DNA from: Geodermatophilus aquaeductus
GTDB lineage: Bacteria > Actinomycetota > Actinomycetes > Mycobacteriales > Geodermatophilaceae
Direction of reading: 5' to 3'
Assembly (NCBI RefSeq): GCF_900182545.1
Contig: NZ_FXTJ01000003.1
Location: forward strand, 310,001 to 374,000
Length of the DNA stretch: 64,000 nucleotides
Positions 2,353 through 42,913 of the stretch are shown here, piece after piece. Position 1 is the stretch's first letter. The number at the start of each line of letters is the position of its first letter. The notes below the pieces were generated by a model, which was not told the DNA's origin, did not search any database, and saw only the letters and a program-made list of their open reading frames with translations. A program made the translations under genes and the position numbers.

Positions 2353-2525
2353 GCGGCGGCTCTCCGTTTCTTCCTCAGCTACCGCCTACCGAGTTAGCTG
2401 ACGGGTTCGGGCTGGGAAGACGTGCCCTATCTCCGCACACCGGTCAGTGACCGGCGCACACGAGAACTCACCCCAGTGCTGCGGTGGGTCCCCGGCTCAC
2501 CTCGCGCACCCCCGGGAGGGGCGTT
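2353..2525 (-). promoter_or_regulatory. ydaO/yuaA-type c-di-AMP riboswitch in the leader of the NlpC/P60 gene
   Basis: Read on the minus strand, the leader contains the hallmark blocks of the ydaO class in order: GCCGGGGACCCA (about 2493-2504), TGGGGTGA (about 2470-2480), a GTAGGG-like AGATAGGGC (about 2430), then CCCGAACCCGTCAGCTAAC and GGTAGGCGG (about 2380-2415), just before the start codon. In actinobacteria this RNA class controls cell-wall hydrolase genes such as rpf and NlpC/P60, which is the gene found here. In known examples ligand binding turns expression off. The boundaries are approximate because the P1 stem was paired only by eye. Confidence 0.85.
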
Positions 2526-2594
2526 GCGGTGACTCGGCGGTGCCCGGCCGAGGTCACCTCGTGACGGGTGACGACCACCCGGTCGGACGCGGCC

Positions 2595-34258: not shown

Positions 34259-34918
34259 GTGACCGAGTTGCGCGTCGTCCGGGCCGGCACCGTCCCCTAC
34301 GAGGAGGCGTGGGCGCGCCAGCGGGAGATCCACGCCGCCCGCGTCGCCGGCGAGGGGCCGGACACCCTGCTGCTGCTCGAGCACCCGTCGGTCTACACCG
34401 CCGGCCGGCGCACCGAGCCGCACGAGCGCCCGTTCGACGGCACACCGGTCGTCGACGTCGACCGCGGCGGCAAGATCACCTGGCACGGGCCCGGGCAGCT
34501 GGTGGGCTACCCGATCGTCGCGTTGCCCGACCCGGTCGACGTCGTCGCGCACGTGCGCCGGCTCGAGGACGCGCTCATGCAGGTGTGCGGCTCGCTCGGC
34601 GTGGAGACGGTGCGCGTCGAGGGCCGCAGCGGCGTGTGGCTGCCCGCCGACGCCCCCGGACCGGACAGCCGGTTCCGGCCGGAGCGCAAGATCGCCGCCA
34701 TCGGCGTACGCGTCGCCCGCGGCGTGACGATGCACGGCTTCGCGCTCAACTGCGATCCCGACCTCGCTGCGTTCGGCGCGATCGTGCCCTGCGGCATCGT
34801 CGACGCCGGGGTCACCTCGCTGTCGGCGGAACTGGGCCGCGACGTCCCCGTCCCCGAGATTGTCGACGCGGTCGAGGCCGCGATGCGCCGCGTGCTCACC
34901 CTCACGCCGGCCGTCTGA
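34259..34918 (+). CDS. lipB: Octanoyl-[acyl carrier protein]:protein N-octanoyltransferase
   Basis: 219 residues. It moves octanoate from ACP to lipoyl domains, the first step of lipoate synthesis. [32 protein letters not shown] and the catalytic Cys in [13 protein letters not shown] with Lys in RKIAAIGVR are present. The GTG is 7 nt after TAGGCT (34246-34251). lipA, which inserts the sulfurs, is 7 kb downstream; SucB is a likely substrate. Confidence 0.95.
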
Positions 34919-35332: not shown

Positions 35333-38224
35333 TCAGCCGACGACGAAGTTGACCAGCCGCCCGGGCACCGCGACGACGCGCCGCACCGTCTTGCCGGCCA
35401 GCTGCGCGGCGACCCGCTCGTCCTCGCGCGCCGCCGCCTCGAGGGCCGCGGCGTCGGCGTCGGCCGGCACGGTCACCTGCGCGCGCACCTTGCCGTTGAC
35501 CTGCACGGCGACCTGCACGGTGTCCTCGACCAGCCACCGCTCGTCGGCCACCGGGAACGGCGCCCACGCCACGGACTCCTCGTGCCCCAGCCGCGCCCAC
35601 AGCTCCTCGGCCAGGTGCGGGGCCAGCGGCGCCACCAGCAGCACCAGCGGCTCGGCCACCGACCGCGGCACGGGTGAGTCGGCGCCGTAGGCCGCGGTCA
35701 GCGCGTTGGTCAGCTCGGCGATCCGGGCGATCGCCACGTTGAACCGCAGCGTCGCCATGCCGTCGCGCACGCCGGCGATCGCCTTGTGCAGCGCCCGCTG
35801 GACGTCGTCGGACGGGGTGGCGTCGCCGGCGCGGACCGCGCCGGACTGCTCGTCGACGACGACCCGCCAGATCCGCTGCAGCAGCCGCTGCGAGCCGACC
35901 ACGGCCTTGGTGTCCCACGGCCGCGACTGCTCCAGCGGCCCGGTCGACATCTCGTAGACCCGGAAGGTGTCGGCCCCGTACGCGCCGATCATCTCGTCGG
36001 GCGTGACCATGTTCTTCAGGGACTTGCCGATCTTCCCGTACTCGCGGTTGACCGGCTTGCCCTCGTAGAGGAACCGCCCGTCCTCCTCGACCACGTCGGC
36101 GGCGGGCACGTAGAAGCCGCGCTCGTCGGTGTAGGCGTAGGCCGAGATGTAGCCCTGGTTGACCAGCCGCCGGAACGGCTCCTCGCTGGACACGTAGCCC
36201 AGGTCGTGCAGCACCTTGTGCCAGAACCGGGCGTAGAGCAGGTGCAGGACCGCGTGCTCCATGCCGCCGACGTAGAGGTCCACGCCGCCGACGTCGCCGG
36301 GCGTCCGCGGGCCCAGCCAGTAGCGCTCCAGCTCCGGGTCGACCAGCTGTGCGTCGTCGGCGGGGTCCAGGTAGCGCAGGTAGTACCAGCACGAGCCTGC
36401 CCAGTTGGGCATCGTGTTGGTCTCGCGGCGGTAGGGCTTCACGCCGTCGCCCAGGTCGAGCTCGACGGTCGTCCACTCGGCCACCCGCGACAGCGGCGGC
36501 TCGGGCGCGGACGTGGCGTCGTCGTCGGCGAAGGTCTTCGGCGAGTAGTCGTCGACGTCGGGCAGCAGCACCGGCAGCAGCGACTCGGGCACCGCACGCG
36601 GCAGGCCGTCGGCGTCGTACACGATCGGGAACGGCTCGCCCCAGTAGCGCTGCCGGCTGAACAGCCAGTCGCGCAGCTTGTAGGTGGTCGTGGCCTCGCC
36701 GTGCCCGCTGGCCACCAGCCACTCGGTCACCCGCGCGATGGCGGCGGCCTTGTCGGTCAGCCCGTCCAGCGACACGTGCTCGTTCGACGAGTTGATCATC
36801 GGGCCGCTGCCGGTGTACGCGCCGCCGTCGAAGTCGGCGGGCGGCTGCACGGTGCGCACCACCGGCAGGCCGAAGACCTGCGCGAACTCCCAATCGCGGG
36901 TGTCCTCGCCGGGGACGGCCATGATCGCGCCGGTGCCGTAGCCGGTCAGCACGTAGTCGGCGATGAACACCGGCAGCTCGACGCCGGTGACCGGGTTGGT
37001 GGCGGTGACGCCCAGCCAGACGCCGGTCTTCTCCCGGCTCTCGTTCTGCCGGTCGAGCTCCGAGCGCCGCGAGGCCTGCCGCTGGTAGGCCTCGACGGCC
37101 TCCCGCGGGGTCGTCGCGCCGGCGGTCCAGCGCGGGTCGGTGCCGTCGGGCCACACGTCGGCGGTCAACTCGGCGACCATCGGGTGCTCCGGCGCCAGCA
37201 CCATGTACGTGGCGCCGAACAGCGTGTCCGGGCGGGTGGTGAAGACCTCGATGGTCTCGTCGCCGCAGCTGAAGCCGATCCGCGCGCCGGTCGAGCGGCC
37301 GATCCAGTTGCGCTGCATCTGCTTGACCGAGTCCGACCAGTCCAGCCGGTCGAGGTCGGCCAGCAGCCGCTCGGAGTAGGCGGCGATCCGCATCATCCAC
37401 TGGGTCAGCGGGCGCCGGAACACCGGGAAGTTGCCGCGCTCGGAGCGGCCGTCGGGGGTGACCTCCTCGTTGGAGAGCACCGTGCCCAGGCCCGGGCACC
37501 AGTTGACCGGCGCCTCGTGCAGGTAGGCCAGCCGGTGGGCGTCGACGACCTTCCGCTTGTCGACGTCGGACAGCTCCGCCCACGGCCGCCCCGAGGGGTT
37601 GGTGCCCGGCGCGGGCTCGCGGGTTCCGGCGTCCAGCTCGGCCACCAGCTCCTCGACGGGGCGGGCGCGGCCGGACTCCTCGTCGAACCAGGCACCGAAG
37701 ATCTTCAGGAAGATCCACTGGGTCCACTTGTAGTAGCCCGGGTCGATCGTGGCGAAGGTGCGGCGCTCGTCGTGGTCCACGCCCAGCCGGCGCAGCTGCG
37801 CCCGGATCGCCGCGATGTTGGCCTCGGTGGTGATCCGCGGGTGCTGCCCGGTCTGCACGGCGTACTGCTCGGCGGGCAGGCCGAAGGCGTCGTAGCCCAT
37901 CGGGTGCAGCACGTTGTCGCCGTCCATGCGGCGGAACCGGCTGGTGACGTCGGTGCCCAGGTAGCCCAGGGGGTGCCCGACGTGCAGGCCCGCACCCGAG
38001 GGGTACGGGAACATGTCCATGATGAAGGTCTTGGGCCGGTCGGCGACCCGGTCGAAGCCGGCGGAGAGCCGGCCCACGGGGTTGGGCGTGTGGAAGGTCC
38101 CCTCGCGCTCCCACCGGTCCTGCCACTCCAGCTCGATCCGCTGGGCCAGGGCCGGGGTGTAGCGGTGCGGGGGGACGCCCTCCTCGGCCGGCTCGGTCGT
38201 GGGCTGGCTGGCCGTCTGGCTCAT
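35333..38224 (-). CDS. leuS: Leucyl-tRNA synthetase
   Basis: 963 residues. Class-I synthetase with the HIGH motif as HVGH (81-84, in [14 protein letters not shown]) and the KMSKS loop as IGKSLKN. The editing domain with [15 protein letters not shown] and the anticodon-binding and C-terminal domains are intact. The ATG is the first in frame after the attenuator-like leader (38260-38344), with GGGAGC upstream. Expression is likely set by leucyl-tRNA availability through that leader. Confidence 0.97.
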
Positions 38225-38259
38225 CGCGGTGCTCCCGGGGTCATCCGTCGGCGGACATG

Positions 38260-38285
38260 AAAAGACCCCTCACGCAGGAGGGGTC
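38260..38285 (-). terminator. Attenuator-type terminator in the leuS leader
   Basis: On the minus strand an 8-bp stem GACCCCTC/GAGGGGTC (38278-38285 with 38264-38271) and a six-base loop are followed directly by four Ts (38263-38260). It is 36 nt before the leuS ATG, so it must be read through for leuS to be expressed. Confidence 0.82.
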
Positions 38286-38318
38286 GCCGTGCTGCCTGAT
38301 CGGTCAGGTCAGCACGGC
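38286..38318 (-). promoter_or_regulatory. Strong RNA hairpin between the leader peptide and the attenuator terminator
   Basis: GCCGTGCTG (38310-38318 side on the RNA) pairs with CAGCACGGC, and the inner CCTGA/TCAGG pair closes a CCGA-type tetraloop, 14 bp in all with one bulge. It abuts the terminator stem without a gap and includes the leader stop codon. The 3' arm (CAGGCAGC) can also pair with the Leu-codon segment GCTGCTTCTG, so alternative folds exist. Confidence 0.7.
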
Positions 38319-38344
38319 CGCAGAAGCAGCTGTCCGCCGGTCAC
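38309..38344 (-). CDS. Leucine-rich leader peptide of leuS (11 residues)
   Basis: The peptide is MTGGQLLLRPC, with three consecutive Leu codons (CTG CTT CTG, 38329-38321), read from a GTG 6 nt after a TAGACT box, so its mRNA is probably leaderless. It is followed by a hairpin and a T-tailed terminator before leuS. By analogy with amino-acid biosynthetic attenuators, ribosome stalling at the Leu codons would decide terminator formation. The exact antiterminator is not clear by eye. Confidence 0.72.
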   Translation of the reverse strand: MTGGQLLLRPC

Positions 38345-38350
38345 ACCCCG

Positions 38351-38356
38351 AGTCTA
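38351..38356 (-). promoter_or_regulatory. -10 box of the leuS leader transcript
   Basis: TAGACT on the minus strand, 6 nt before the leader-peptide GTG. It places the transcription start at or next to that GTG. Confidence 0.65.
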
Positions 38357-38435: not shown

Positions 38436-40712
38436 GTGCGACGCGGTCCGCAGTCCCCCCGGCGTGCCGGGACCGATCCCCGCGACCTCCTCCTGGTGGT
38501 CGCGGCCTTCGGCGTGACCGCCTTCGCCACCGGCGTGGGCCCACGGCCCGGCGGCGCGGTGTGGGACGTCCTCTACGACGTCGTCGTCTACCACGTGCCC
38601 TGGGTGGCGGCCGCCGCCGCGTGCTGGCTGACCGCCCGTCGTGCACCGCGCGAGGCGCTCGCCTGGCGGGCCCTGGCCACCACGCTCACCGTGGGCGCCG
38701 TCGGCAACGTCGCCCGCATCATCGAGACCGGCTCGGCCGGCACGACGCCGTCCGCGGTCGGCGACACCTGCGTCGCCGTCGCCTACGCCAGCCTCTACGT
38801 CGCGCTGTTCGTCCTCATCCGGGCCCGGGTCACCCGCTTCCTGCCGAGCATGTGGCTCGACGGCGTCGTGGGCGCCCTCGGCACCACGGCGGTCGGCACC
38901 GGTTTCCTGCTCGGCCCGTACATGACCGACGCCGCCAACGTCTCGGTGCTGCAGCTGGCCTGGCCGGCCGCCGACGTCCTGCTCCTGGCGCTCGTCGTCG
39001 GCGTCGGCGCGATCGTCGGCGTGCACCTCGACCGCACGCTGCTGCTGGCCGGCGCGTCGGTCGCCCTCTTCTGCGTCGCCGACGTCGCCCTGTTCGCGCT
39101 CAGCGCGGCGGGCCGCTACTCCGACGGCGGTCCCCTCGAGCTGATCTGGCTGGCCGGCGTCCTGTGCGCCGCGATCGCCGCGCAGCGCACCACCGGCGAC
39201 CCGCAGCCGCGCGACGCCGACCAGGGCGTCCGCATCACCTGGCGGCTCGTCGCGCTGCCGCTGGCCGGCACGCTCGCCGCCCTCGTCGTCCTCGCCGCCG
39301 GCTACGGCGACGACCTGCCCGACAGCGCCGGGTGGCTCGCCGTCGGCTGCGTCCTGGCCGCGCTGGCACGCACCGCGGTCACCTTCAGCGAGGTCCGGTC
39401 CTTCACGGTGGTCCGCCAGGAGGCGCGCACCGACGAGCTCACCGGGCTGCCCAACCGCCGCGCCCTGCTCGAGCGGGCCCGCGCCGTCGTCGCCGGGGCG
39501 AGCACCGCCTCCCCCGCCGCGCTGCTGCTGCTCGACCTCGACGGCTTCAAGGAGGTCAACGACAGCCTCGGGCACGGCGCCGGCGACCAGCTGCTGTGCC
39601 AGGTCGGACCGCGGCTGGCCCCGGCGCTGCGCCCCGGCGAGGTGCTCGCCCGCCTCGGTGGCGACGAGTTCGCCGTCCTGCTGCCCGACGTCGACCTCGA
39701 CGCCGCCGCCGAGCGCGCCGGCATCGTGCACGACCTTCTGCGGCAGCCCTTCGAGGTCGACGGCATCCGGCTGCACGTCGGCGTCAGCATCGGCGTCTCG
39801 ACCGCGCCGGTCCCCGCCGACGACGTCCAGGAGCTGCTGCGCTGCGCCGACGTCGCCATGTACGCGGCCAAGACCGAGCGCACCGGCGTGCACGTCTACG
39901 TCCCCGACCCGAACAGCGGCTCCGGCGAGCGGCTGCGCACGATGGAGGAGCTGCGCACCGCCCTGGTGTCGGACCAGCTCGACGTCCACCTGCAGCCGCA
40001 GGTCGCCATGGACGACGGCCGCGTGGTCGGCGTCGAGGCGCTGCTGCGCTGGCACCACCCCGAGCGCGGGCTGCTCTCGCCGGCGCACGTGCTGCCCGCC
40101 GCCGAGCAGGCCGGCCTGCTGCGCCCGCTCACCGACACCGTGCTCGAGCGCTCGCTCGACGCGGTGGCGCAGTGGTGGGACGAGCACCGGGTGCCGGTGT
40201 CGGTGAACCTGTCGGCGGCCAACGTGGCCGACATCGACCTGCCCGGCAAGGTCGCCGCGAAGCTCGCCCGGCGCGGGCTGCCCGCCGCCGCGCTCACCCT
40301 GGAACTGGTCGAGGACACCCTCATGGCCGATCCCGAGCGCGGCCGGTGCGTGCTCGGCGAGCTGCGCCGCCTCGGCGTGCGCACCTCCATCGACGACTAC
40401 GGCACCGGCTACAGCTCGCTGGCCTACCTGCGGCGGCTGCCCGCCGACGAGCTCAAGCTCGACCGCAGCCTCACCGCCGACGTCGACGTCGACGAGCGCG
40501 CCGCGGCGATCGTCCGGCACACGGTCGCGCTCGCCCACGACCTGGGCCTGAGCCTGGTGGCCGAGGGCGTCGAGGACGTCGCCACCGCCCGCCGCCTGGC
40601 GGCGCTGGGCTGCGACGTCGCGCAGGGCTACGCCGTCGCCCGGCCGATGCCGGTCGAGGACCTCCTGCACTGGCTGTCGGCCGAGCGCAGCGGGCTGCTC
40701 CGCTCGGTCTGA
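38436..40712 (+). CDS. Membrane-bound GGDEF-EAL protein (c-di-GMP synthesis/hydrolysis)
   Basis: 758 residues. About eight to nine N-terminal membrane helices (about 20-310, MASE-like) are followed by a GGDEF domain (about 325-490) with intact RLGGDEFAVLLP and an EAL domain (about 505-750) with GVEALLRW and the metal-binding ELVEDTLM and DDYGTGYSSLAYL. Both halves keep catalytic residues, so net activity cannot be predicted. An I-site RxxD was not evident upstream of GGDEF. The GTG start has no clear ribosome site. It is divergent from leuS. Confidence 0.92.
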   Translation: MRRGPQSPRRAGTDPRDLLLVVAAFGVTAFATGVGPRPGGAVWDVLYDVVVYHVPWVAAAAACWLTARRAPREALAWRALATTLTVGAVGNVARIIETGSAGTTPSAVGDTCVAVAYASLYVALFVLIRARVTRFLPSMWLDGVVGALGTTAVGTGFLLGPYMTDAANVSVLQLAWPAADVLLLALVVGVGAIVGVHLDRTLLLAGASVALFCVADVALFALSAAGRYSDGGPLELIWLAGVLCAAIAAQRTTGDPQPRDADQGVRITWRLVALPLAGTLAALVVLAAGYGDDLPDSAGWLAVGCVLAALARTAVTFSEVRSFTVVRQEARTDELTGLPNRRALLERARAVVAGASTASPAALLLLDLDGFKEVNDSLGHGAGDQLLCQVGPRLAPALRPGEVLARLGGDEFAVLLPDVDLDAAAERAGIVHDLLRQPFEVDGIRLHVGVSIGVSTAPVPADDVQELLRCADVAMYAAKTERTGVHVYVPDPNSGSGERLRTMEELRTALVSDQLDVHLQPQVAMDDGRVVGVEALLRWHHPERGLLSPAHVLPAAEQAGLLRPLTDTVLERSLDAVAQWWDEHRVPVSVNLSAANVADIDLPGKVAAKLARRGLPAAALTLELVEDTLMADPERGRCVLGELRRLGVRTSIDDYGTGYSSLAYLRRLPADELKLDRSLTADVDVDERAAAIVRHTVALAHDLGLSLVAEGVEDVATARRLAALGCDVAQGYAVARPMPVEDLLHWLSAERSGLLRSV

Positions 40713-40785: not shown

Positions 40786-41856
40786 GTGTTCCGCACACAG
40801 TCCCGCGGCCAGGTCATCCAGGCCGAGCTCCAGGAGGGGCTGAACCACCTCGGCGTCGCCGTCACCGAGGCCGGCCGAGCCGCCGCGGAGCAGCTCGGCC
40901 CGCGGATGGACGCCGCGTTCGAGGCGGCCGGACCGGTGCTCGACGCCGCCCGCGTGGCGGTCGCCCCCAAGGTGGCCGCCGCCGTCGCCGTGGCCGCGCC
41001 CGCCGTCGCCTCCGCCCGTGAGGCCCTGACGCCACGGGTGGACGCCGCCCGCGACGCCGCGAGCCCCGTCCTCGAGGCCGCCCGCGAGCGGGTCGACGCC
41101 GCCGTCGTGGCGCTGACCCCGCGCGTCGTCGCCGCCCGCGAGGCCGCCGCCCCCACCGTCACCTCGGCGCTGACCGCCGCCGGTGCCGCCGCCGCGAAGG
41201 CCGCCGCCGACCTCGCACCGCGCGTCGAGGCCGCCTCGGCCGCGACCCGCAAGGCGTTGGCCAGCGAGGTGGCGCCCCGCGTGGCCGCCGCCCGCGACAC
41301 CGTCGTCCCCGCGCTGGAGAACGCGCGCGGCACCCTGGTGGCCGGCGTCGGCACCGCGCTGGGCGAGCTGGAGAACCGCCGCGCCGAACTGGTGTCGGGG
41401 ACCCAGAAGGCGGGCAAGAAGACCAGGCGGAAGACCGCCAGGAAGGCCGCGCACGTGAAGCGGACGGTGGCCGTCGAGCAGGGGTCGCGGCGCTGGCCGT
41501 GGCTGCTGGTGGCACTCGCGGTCGGTGCGGCCGCGTTCGCGGTCCTCCGCCGCAGGAAGACGGACCCGTGGACGCCGGCCCCGGCCGGTGACGGGCCCGT
41601 GCCGAGCTACCGAGAGGACCCCGTGCCCAGCTCACCGAGCAACGACAACGCCGGCAAGACCGTCTCCGACGCCCAGTTCGTGGCGGGCGACTCCGCGCCC
41701 GCCGAGGACGACATGGGCATCCGCGACGCCCAGTTCGTCGCGGGCGACGGCGGGGCCGGCGAGACCGACCCCACGCAGACCGCCCCCGAGCCGTTCACCA
41801 GCGGCGGCGGGGCCGACGAGGGCCCGACCGCCGGTCCGGCGGCCGGCCAGGCCTGA
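40786..41856 (+). CDS. Ala-rich helical-repeat protein with one membrane segment
   Basis: 356 residues. Residues about 15-200 are an Ala/Val/Arg-rich run of amphipathic helices with a loose repeat (variants of TPRVxAAREAA), apolipoprotein-like. A Lys/Arg stretch ([10 protein letters not shown]) precedes one membrane helix (about 235-255), and the acidic C-terminal tail contains two copies of DAQFVAGD. No function recognised. Start 40786 has GGAGG 8 nt upstream; an in-frame GTG at 40777 overlaps that site. Terminator downstream. Confidence 0.82.
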
Positions 41857-41875
41857 GCCGACCCGCACTCCCGCA

Positions 41876-41913
41876 GACCGCCCCCGCCGCCTCCCGAGGC
41901 AGCGGGGGCGGTC
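41876..41913 (+). terminator. Terminator between the Ala-rich protein gene and lipA
   Basis: GACCGCCCCCGC (41876-41887) pairs with GCGGGGGCGGTC (41902-41913), 19 nt after the upstream stop and 13 nt before the lipA -10 box. Confidence 0.8.
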
Positions 41914-41938
41914 CGCGTCCGGGGGTACCGTGGGGATC

Positions 41939-42913
41939 ATGAGCGAGACGGTGACGACCAGTACCTCCGAGCCGTCCCCCACCGGCCCCGCCGGCCGCAA
42001 GCTCCTGCGCCTCGAGGTGCGCAACAGCCAGGTGCCGATCGAGCGCAAGCCCGAGTGGATCAAGACCCGGCTCAAGACCGGGCCGGAGTACACCGAGCTC
42101 AAGTCGCTGGTCCGCCGCGAGGGCCTGCACACCGTCTGCGAAGAGGCCGGCTGCCCCAACATCTACGAGTGCTGGGAGGACCGGGAGGCCACCTTCCTCA
42201 TCGGTGGCGACCAGTGCACCCGCCGCTGCGACTTCTGCCAGATCGACACCGGCAAGCCCGCCGACTTCGACGCCGACGAGCCGCGCCGCGTGGCCGAGAG
42301 CGTCGCGGCGATGCAGCTGCGCTACGCCACCGTCACCGGCGTCGCCCGCGACGACCTGCCCGACGGCGGTGCGTGGCTCTACGCCGAGACGGTCCGTCAG
42401 ATCCACGCCGCCGTCCCCGGCTGCGGCGTCGAGCTGCTCATCCCCGACTTCAACGCCGACCCCGCGCAGCTCGCCGAGGTCTTCTCCTCCCGGCCCGAGG
42501 TCCTCGCGCACAACGTCGAGACGGTGCCGCGGATCTTCAAGCGCATCCGGCCCGGCTTCCGCTTCGAGCGGTCCCTGTCGGTCATCACCGCCGCCCGCGA
42601 GGCCGGGCTGGTCACCAAGTCCAACCTCATCCTCGGGATGGGCGAGGAGCCGCACGAGGTCGTCGAGACCATGCGGGCGCTGCACGACGCCGGCTGCGAC
42701 CTGCTGACGATCACCCAGTACCTGCGGCCCTCGCCGCGGCACCACCCCGTCGTCCGCTGGGTCAAGCCCGACGAGTTCGTCGGCTTCCAGCAGCAGGCCG
42801 AGGAGATCGGCTTCCCGGGCGTCCTCGCCGGGCCGCTGGTGCGCAGCTCCTACCGCGCTGGCCGGCTCTACCAGCAGGCCGTCGAGGCCCGCGGTCTCAC
42901 CACTCGGGGCTGA
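41939..42913 (+). CDS. lipA: Lipoyl synthase
   Basis: 324 residues. Radical-SAM enzyme inserting two sulfurs into protein-bound octanoate. The auxiliary cluster cysteines ([13 protein letters not shown]) and the SAM-cluster motif CTRRCDFCQ are complete, and the C-terminal RSSYRAG is present. The ATG is 7 nt after TACCGT (41926-41931), pointing to a leaderless mRNA. Works after LipB; client proteins SucB and the glycine-cleavage system are partly encoded here. The DUF4191 gene follows, as in many actinobacteria. Confidence 0.97.

Follow-up and report, generated by a model that had tools for sequence, protein, structure and literature searches.

The window analysed here is a stretch of 64,000 nucleotides from Geodermatophilus aquaeductus (assembly GCF_900182545.1, contig NZ_FXTJ01000003.1, positions 310,001–374,000), a soil bacterium of the class Actinomycetes, order Mycobacteriales and family Geodermatophilaceae. 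On its minus strand lies leuS, encoding leucine–tRNA ligase (877.6 bits against TIGR00396, cut-off 548.4), which adjoins a divergently oriented GGDEF/EAL gene (38436–40712). By reading of the frames, these two genes are flanked on the plus strand by a lipB-like (34259–34918) and a lipA-like frame (about 41525–42913). Elsewhere in the window, a c-di-AMP riboswitch (RF00379, 64.3 bits, 2368–2549, minus strand) precedes a 405-aa frame (1133–2350) that reads like an NlpC/P60-type cell-wall hydrolase. An initial annotation had placed before leuS, in this order, a TAGACT box, a Leu-rich open reading frame (ORF), a 14-bp hairpin and an 8-bp stem with TTTT, and all of these are indeed present on the minus strand:

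38356–38351, minus strand: –10 box TAGACT (from the sequence), separated from the leader start codon by a 6-nt spacer, CGGGGT
38344–38309, minus strand: leader peptide MTGGQLLLRPC (from the sequence), with a GTG start at 38344 and a stop codon at 38311–38309, its codons being GTG ACC GGC GGA CAG CTG CTT CTG CGG CCG TGC TGA
38329–38321, minus strand: Leu control codons CTG CTT CTG, with the CTT ending 5 nt before P1
38318–38286, minus strand: hairpin P1, 9 + 5 = 14 bp with one bulged A and the leader stop codon within its 5′ arm (folds, covariation)
38285–38264, minus strand: intrinsic terminator hairpin P2, 8 bp with a loop of 6, gap 0 to P1 (terminator scan, covariation)
38263–38260, minus strand: terminator U-run TTTT (from the sequence)
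38224–35333, minus strand: leuS, leucine–tRNA ligase, with its ATG at 38224

The leader of the window folds to −49.1 kcal/mol (z −5.28), a value as low as that of none of 200 shuffled sequences, and a terminator scan returns two overlapping matches, both corresponding to the P2 terminator, against a mean of 0.1 in shuffles. No Rfam family matches the element at its gathering score, and across eight loci including the leuS of this genome no match – to the T-box or any other family – appears at E ≤ 1. The leader-peptide element upstream of leuS is real and not a product of chance. Of 75 leuS leaders, 49 have the motif TGYCYG (TGTCCG at 38257–38252 in the window) 7–8 nt past the first base of the U-run; its background rate is 2.3% of the 22-nt windows in leuS leaders and their upstream flank.

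The initial annotation had named the loss of the Leu codons or of the terminator in related bacteria as grounds for abandoning its claim of a Leu-codon leader peptide and terminator before leuS; such loss did not occur, both being conserved across the order and outside it. At the DNA level, matches were found in 41 of the 61 genomes searched, including all 37 of the family (this genome counted), though in two family genomes (G029 and G034) the match amounts to no more than weak or short fragments. Each of the 30 family loci fetched, again with this one included, has the full set of –10 box, leader and terminator. A first covariance model, built from these 30 family leaders, has matches in 135 of 200 genomes of the order (E ≤ 0.1) and a single convincing match in the genome of G. 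aquaeductus itself, and a second, built from 59 leaders, has matches in 153 of 296 genomes of the class. A model match is not always a leuS site: a LeuS-coding frame lies downstream in 55 of the 60 order loci fetched and in 12 of 13 best-site class loci. The P1–P2 pattern – scored alone, leuS context aside – occurs in at least 117 stretches of named records, including Geodermatophilus, Blastococcus, Modestobacter, Klenkia, Amycolatopsis, Micromonospora, Nakamurella and Streptomyces. Among the 143 class genomes unmatched by the second model, the 20 listed all belong to one family of the order, referred to below as f8.

The leader set used for most counts below comprises 84 loci: the 30 of the family and 54 from the wider order. 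From the 60 order loci, five were dropped as not lying upstream of a LeuS frame (L118–L122), and one (L078) as having no clean short ORF by the rule applied, although its Leu run and P1 are present. For folding, two further leaders (L084 and L089) in which the rule used found no terminator were left out, giving a set of 82.

The spacings in these leaders are fixed. In all 84, a run of Leu codons – two in 20 leaders, three in 64 – stops exactly 5 nt short of P1, so counted that the window carries an extra CTG after its CTT, and the run begins 14 nt (64 leaders) or 11 nt (20, including the window) before P1. The codon that ends 5 nt before P1 is CTT in 76 leaders and CTC in the other 8. CTT makes up 37% of the leader Leu codons (90 of 243) as against 1.7% of those in LeuS coding frames (38 of 2252), and none of the 76 in the LeuS of the window. 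Rare control codons are known from other attenuators; the fixed position of CTT may reflect such a codon or a constraint on the RNA.

Relative to the first base of P1, the stop codon starts 7 nt downstream in 81 of the 84 leaders and 2 nt upstream in the other three. P1 itself has the consensus GCCG[C/T]GCTG...CAGC[G/A]CGGC among the 84, with a fifth pair that is C–G in 39 and T–A in 45, matching the Arg/Cys codon of the peptide tail, and it is kept in the three leaders whose ORF ends with TAG at its foot. Because the Arg/Cys codon covaries with the 3′ arm of P1, and because the TAG leaders keep P1 nonetheless, the peptide tail seems to be constrained as RNA rather than as peptide.

Covariation across relatives, the check proposed at the outset, bears out both stems: in an alignment of 59 leaders – one that had been fitted to the structure – 98.3% of cells in P1 and P2 are paired, 11 of 17 pairs have changed on both sides, and none of 500 shuffles scores as high, whereas sliding the partners of P1 and P2 lowers pairing to 41–52%. 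Among the family leaders alone the stems are nearly invariant, with no pair changed on both sides. The P1 loop can be as short as 6 nt or as long as 50 nt, yet the mean P1–P2 gap is 0.28 nt over the 82 leaders. P1 can be extended outwards by 0 bp in 75 of the 84 leaders, by 1 bp in seven, and by 2 and 3 bp in one each. The family consensus fold consists of P1 and P2 only, and the pairing of the 3′ arm of P1 with the Leu codons, which the initial annotation had pointed out, is accordingly not a conserved feature.

The initial annotation had also suggested that the leader peptide begins at the 5′ end of the transcript, and the promoter spacing points the same way. A count that takes only P1 and the Leu-codon frame as its starting points gives 83 of 84 leaders with an in-frame ATG or GTG preceded by TAnnnT at 6–7 nt; the two remaining frames, which serve as controls, give 0 of 84 each. 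Over all RTG triplets of 86 loci, both strands included, TAnnnT stands at this distance in 86 of 22315 cases. An earlier count, 81 of 84 at 6–7 nt, is partly circular, as 54 of the ORFs had first been picked with a loose –10-like filter and a minimum of two Leu residues. Judged by this spacing, the leuS leader of the window is predicted to be leaderless, its start codon lying at the predicted 5′ end of the RNA. The initial annotation had further named a transcript start beyond the terminator as a refutation; between P2 and the leuS ATG, no TAnnnT was found in any of 29 family leaders (a further one, L009, has a different start string and was left out); together with the divergent orientation of the neighbouring gene, this means that transcription of leuS seems obliged to pass P2.

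Is this layout particular to leuS? Since covariance models themselves favour a zero gap, the case for such a gap rests on an independent scan, in which leuS, ilvB and citramalate synthase genes were located by protein family and not by RNA model, and P1–P2 gaps of 0–30 nt were allowed in the upstream regions. A leaderless Leu/Ile/Val leader with a terminator was found at 17 of 30 leuS, 28 of 30 ilvB and 15 of 26 citramalate synthase loci; the scan found no leader at the other 13, 2 and 11, respectively, and some of the negative leuS loci (in G045 and G060) do have one by covariance model. The gap is 0 or 1 nt in 14 of 17 leuS, 21 of 28 ilvB and 13 of 15 citramalate synthase leaders (48 of 60 in total), against 33 of 267 other terminators at the same loci (Fisher odds ratio 28, with a p value of 1.6e-24 that is only a guide because the sequences are related). 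The control codons end 5 nt before P1 in 12 of the 17 leuS leaders, 4 or 5 nt before it in 23 of the 28 ilvB leaders and 5 or 8 nt in 13 of the 15 citramalate synthase leaders – where a locus had several terminators, the one with a codon distance nearest 5 nt was taken, which slightly favours that value. The sequences of P1 differ among the three kinds of leader; it is the spacings that recur.

The genome of G. aquaeductus has both further leaders, before ilvB (L225) and citramalate synthase (L235), with the same abutting hairpins, on a contig (C5) outside the window. Weaker, secondary matches to the models precede leuA (L138 and L139, of which L138 exceeds the cut-off of an NCBIfam model for 2-isopropylmalate synthase), citramalate synthase (among them L142, a fragment scoring 375 bits where the family cut-off is 450) and, by reading of the frames, ilvB. 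The codons fit the pathway: Leu before leuS and leuA, Leu, Val and Ile before ilvB, and, before citramalate synthase, mainly Ile together with Val or Leu. Other secondary matches (L150–L153, L155 and L158) are, by reading of the loci, due to chance. At one locus (L141), a leader encoding MFTPRIIII with this layout stands before a frame of 103 aa that looks like an ACT domain by eye and has no NCBIfam match. In family f8, the independent scan finds no leader at leuS in two genomes, G043 and G056 (L185 and L200); the ilvB leader of G043, with LVVI codons (L209), has the layout, and none was found by the scan at the ilvB locus of G056 (L220). The zero-gap junction, the fixed 5-nt spacing, the rare CTT and the recurrence of the layout before ilvB, citramalate synthase and leuA all go beyond the initial annotation.

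In a classical attenuator, a competing antiterminator would be expected to capture P2. We used ensemble folding in four states – no ribosome, and a ribosome at the first control codon, at the last or at the stop codon – and asked whether the 5′ arm of P2 pairs upstream before its own partner has been made. The modelled ribosome is assumed to block 13 nt from the first base of the A-site codon. The leaders folded were 53 of the 60 from the scan (gap of at most 3 nt, codon distance 1–9 nt) and the set of 82 leuS leaders. When the ribosome is stalled at the first of the control codons, upstream engagement of the P2 5′ arm has a mean probability of 0.03 (leuS), 0.05 (ilvB) and 0.08 (citramalate synthase), and by folding no antiterminator pairing above 0.5 was predicted in any of the 53 leaders or of the 82. 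The corresponding values for E. coli leaders, used as controls, are 1.00 for thrL, 0.62 for trpL, 0.75 for leuL, 0.73 for hisL and 0.75 for ilvL, and at the stop codon they fall to 0.00–0.01 in four of these and stand at 0.72 in hisL. A control of high G+C content was sought at 30 trpE loci of the class, but none showed an upstream short ORF with a pair of neighbouring Trp codons, so that the positive controls are from E. coli only and of lower G+C content. The remark in the initial annotation that no clean antiterminator could be found in the window thus applies to both leader sets.

At the stop codon, the 5′ arm of P2 is engaged upstream with means of 0.37 (leuS), 0.33 (ilvB) and 0.19 (citramalate synthase), and outside the stall engagement exceeds 0.5 somewhere in 23 of the 82 leuS leaders; in the window leader it is 0.55 at the stop codon against 0.01 at the stall – the reverse of a classical attenuator. 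P2 is predicted in every state (means 0.96–0.98), dropping below 0.5 in some state in two of 82 leaders only (L003 and L097). The pairing of P1, by comparison, changes with the state of the ribosome: its mean over the 82 leaders is 0.96 in free RNA and falls to 0.92, 0.28 and 0.00 with a ribosome at the first Leu codon, the last one and the stop, respectively; in the window leader, whose first Leu codon lies 11 nt before P1, it is 0.78 at that codon. Other candidate structures were rejected: pairing of the leader ORF with the region past the U-run is absent from the family consensus fold; the upstream GGGGT, considered as an antiterminator partner, occurs by eye in only part of the sequences and precedes the predicted start; and an overlap of P1 with P2 is absent in 75 of 84 leaders. 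The leuS element has the control peptide and the terminator of a classical trp-type attenuator and, by folding, lacks its antiterminator.

We consider the element to be probably a leucine-responsive, ribosome-mediated transcription attenuator of leuS, and infer a start of transcription, a stalling site and a sign of response as follows. Transcription would begin at or within one nucleotide of the leader GTG, so that a ribosome could initiate directly at the 5′ end of the RNA. When charged tRNA-Leu is plentiful, the ribosome would reach the stop codon within the 5′ arm of P1 and hold this hairpin open, P2 would close behind RNA polymerase, and transcription would terminate at the U-run. Under a shortage of charged tRNA-Leu, the ribosome would stall on CTG CTT CTG, its leading edge reaching the foot of P1, and P1 would form; closed and flush with P2, it would keep the base of P2 from closing in the RNA exit channel, and the polymerase would read through into leuS. 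For this last, steric step – that P1 hinders the closure of P2 in the exit channel – we put the chances slightly below even. It is proposed because the last base of P1 is directly followed by P2, and 75 of the 84 leaders allow no extension of P1 into P2 at all (0 bp): the two hairpins abut with no free nucleotide between them, no pairing of P1 into P2 is predicted, and two helices joined without a spacer would be unable to be closed together in the exit channel.

Readthrough on starvation is supported by work on M. tuberculosis ilvB1, in which replacing the control residues LVVI by AAAA gave low expression and no induction (PMC13236596); the f8 ilvB leader with LVVI codons and abutting hairpins (L209) is probably the same element as that attenuator. 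Several points count against the mechanism. Equilibrium folding gives no off switch, as P2 is predicted in every state, and stacking end to end on P1 might even favour P2. Should stalling be mostly at CTT, the first base of which is 8 nt from P1, a ribosome covering 13 nt would extend over the lower half of this hairpin. We also count against it the 13 of 30 leuS loci at which the independent scan found no leader. Against the proposed sign stands a result for S. coelicolor ilvBNC, cited in PMC1262725, in which a change of the possible control codons was reported to have no effect on ilvB.

How do other explanations compare? The most serious, which we nevertheless regard as unlikely, is that P1 acts mainly as a pause hairpin for the polymerase, synchronising it with the ribosome, and that the decision to read through is kinetic and not steric. 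The sequence downstream of P1 resembles the pause consensus G-10 Y-1 G+1: 62 of the 84 leaders have a pyrimidine–G step 10–11 nt past P1, and in 68 a G directly follows the hairpin. That ribosomes can act on a terminator close by is known from E. coli, where a terminator was repressed by nearby ribosomes (PMC4824070). Yet the pyrimidine–G step is absent in 22 of the 84 and sits within the conserved P2 in any case, and a pause alone would leave the zero-gap contact of P1 with P2 unexplained. A classical trp-type arrangement, with the stalled ribosome allowing the 3′ arm of P1 or some other upstream stretch to form an antiterminator with the 5′ arm of P2, is improbable. It would need the same list of parts, and the Streptomyces leuS leaders are described as classical, with antiterminator and terminator hairpins, in PMC1262725; it is hard to reconcile with the mean engagement of 0.03–0.08 in the stalled state, with none of 53 and none of 82 leaders above 0.5, against 0.62–1.00 in the E. 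coli controls of lower G+C content, and with the lack of any outward extension of P1 in 75 of 84 leuS leaders.

Slightly less probable again is translational control in the readthrough RNA, through pairing of the Leu codons with the Shine–Dalgarno (SD) region of leuS, a mode of action proposed for the leuA LEU element. Over 29 leaders of the family, the region of the Leu codons pairs in this way with a mean of 0.26 (maximum 0.69), and the openness of the SD is 0.38 with the leader against 0.50 without it; in the window leader, however, the pairing is 0.00, and the accessibility of the SD hardly differs with the leader (0.42) and without (0.43). Finally, the hairpins might form a constitutive terminator or a site of transcript processing, next to a short ORF with no regulatory role. 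This we think very improbable: the prediction of P2 in all states would agree with it, but the excess of CTT (37% against 1.7%), the match of the codons to the downstream pathway and the fixed spacings would not.

The element belongs with the known leuS attenuators of Streptomyces, and to that extent the novelty that the initial annotation had implied does not hold: in 2005, attenuators of the classical type had been predicted before leuS in S. avermitilis and S. coelicolor (PMC1262725), and in 2021 a leaderless leuS leader with hairpin and U-run, leuL2 (MRAVRLLLSEPR), was mapped by RNA-seq in S. lividans TK24 (PMC8079986). One of the model matches (L125) encodes MRAVRLLLSEPR, identical to leuL2, with a P1 and a P2 of the leuS-element kind. 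What the Streptomyces leaders share with the window is a Leu-rich leader peptide, hairpin and U-run before leuS (PMC1262725, PMC8079986); the start is leaderless in S. lividans and predicted to be so in the window. The window has the Leu peptide, hairpin and terminator directly before leuS, and is related to them by the model and by the peptide consensus LLLxxP[RC] followed by the stop. The leuS leaders of PMC1262725 differ in being described with an antiterminator hairpin and in being reported there from Streptomyces only, and the zero-gap junction goes unmentioned in the accessible text of these papers.

Other systems resemble the element in part. In the M. tuberculosis ilvB1NC leader the control codons matter, and the structure masked by a ribosome at the stop codon is regarded as the antiterminator; it differs in its gene and codons, in two structures described as mutually exclusive, and in its leader of 166 nt (PMC13236596, 2026). 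The C. glutamicum ilvBNC leader is a 'fast attenuator' whose antiterminator and terminator hairpins have adjacent bases (PMC11857589, 2025), yet there the two hairpins overlap by, and compete for, a GCC, whereas P1 and P2 of leuS touch. Such a shared boundary trinucleotide is not found in the leuS leaders, where P1 extends by 0 bp in 75 of 84. Leaderless short ORFs rich in cysteine codons have reportedly been described in mycobacteria (Canestrari 2020). These polycysteine ORFs likewise encode a leaderless control peptide, but they precede cysteine genes and work by translation attenuation (PMC13236596). The LEU element of leuA, also a Leu-codon leader of Actinobacteria, differs in its pseudoknot and its pairing with the SD (PMC1262725), and the leuA leader of S. 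lividans is said to have no typical Rho-independent terminator (PMC8079986). Pairing of the Leu codons with the SD is absent from the window leader (0.00) and averages 0.26 in the 29 family leaders. An ilvB-II element with an antiterminator has been reported in Corynebacterium by Narunsky et al. (PMC10272879).

Within the literature searched, with few subscription journals included and many papers covered by title and abstract, we found no description of the zero-gap layout across leuS, ilvB and citramalate synthase, nor did it turn up in work on terminators influenced by a hairpin next to or ahead of them; on leader-peptide attenuation of citramalate synthase, the search yielded only work on a methanogen, without this layout. 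The kind of element, then, is already known. New is the layout in which P1 touches P2, with control codons about 5 nt before P1 and no predicted antiterminator pairing, and it suggests an unusual mode of action. We put forward tentatively, as somewhat less probable than its opposite, the wider claim that these leaders form a distinct class of attenuator, widespread in Actinobacteria before leuS, leuA, ilvB and citramalate synthase – one without antiterminator pairing, in which a sensor hairpin flush with the terminator blocks it by geometry alone, with control codons some 5 nt ahead and initiation at the 5′ end of the RNA.

If this is correct, termination in such leaders would be set by the spacing of P1 and P2 and not by alternative pairing, and a large set of actinobacterial amino-acid genes would be under a switch that searches for competing antiterminators would miss. 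It would also help to explain the leader peptides for which parts of an attenuator were missing in an earlier survey, as reported in PMC1262725. In G. aquaeductus itself, leuS, ilvB and citramalate synthase would then respond jointly to the branched-chain amino acids.
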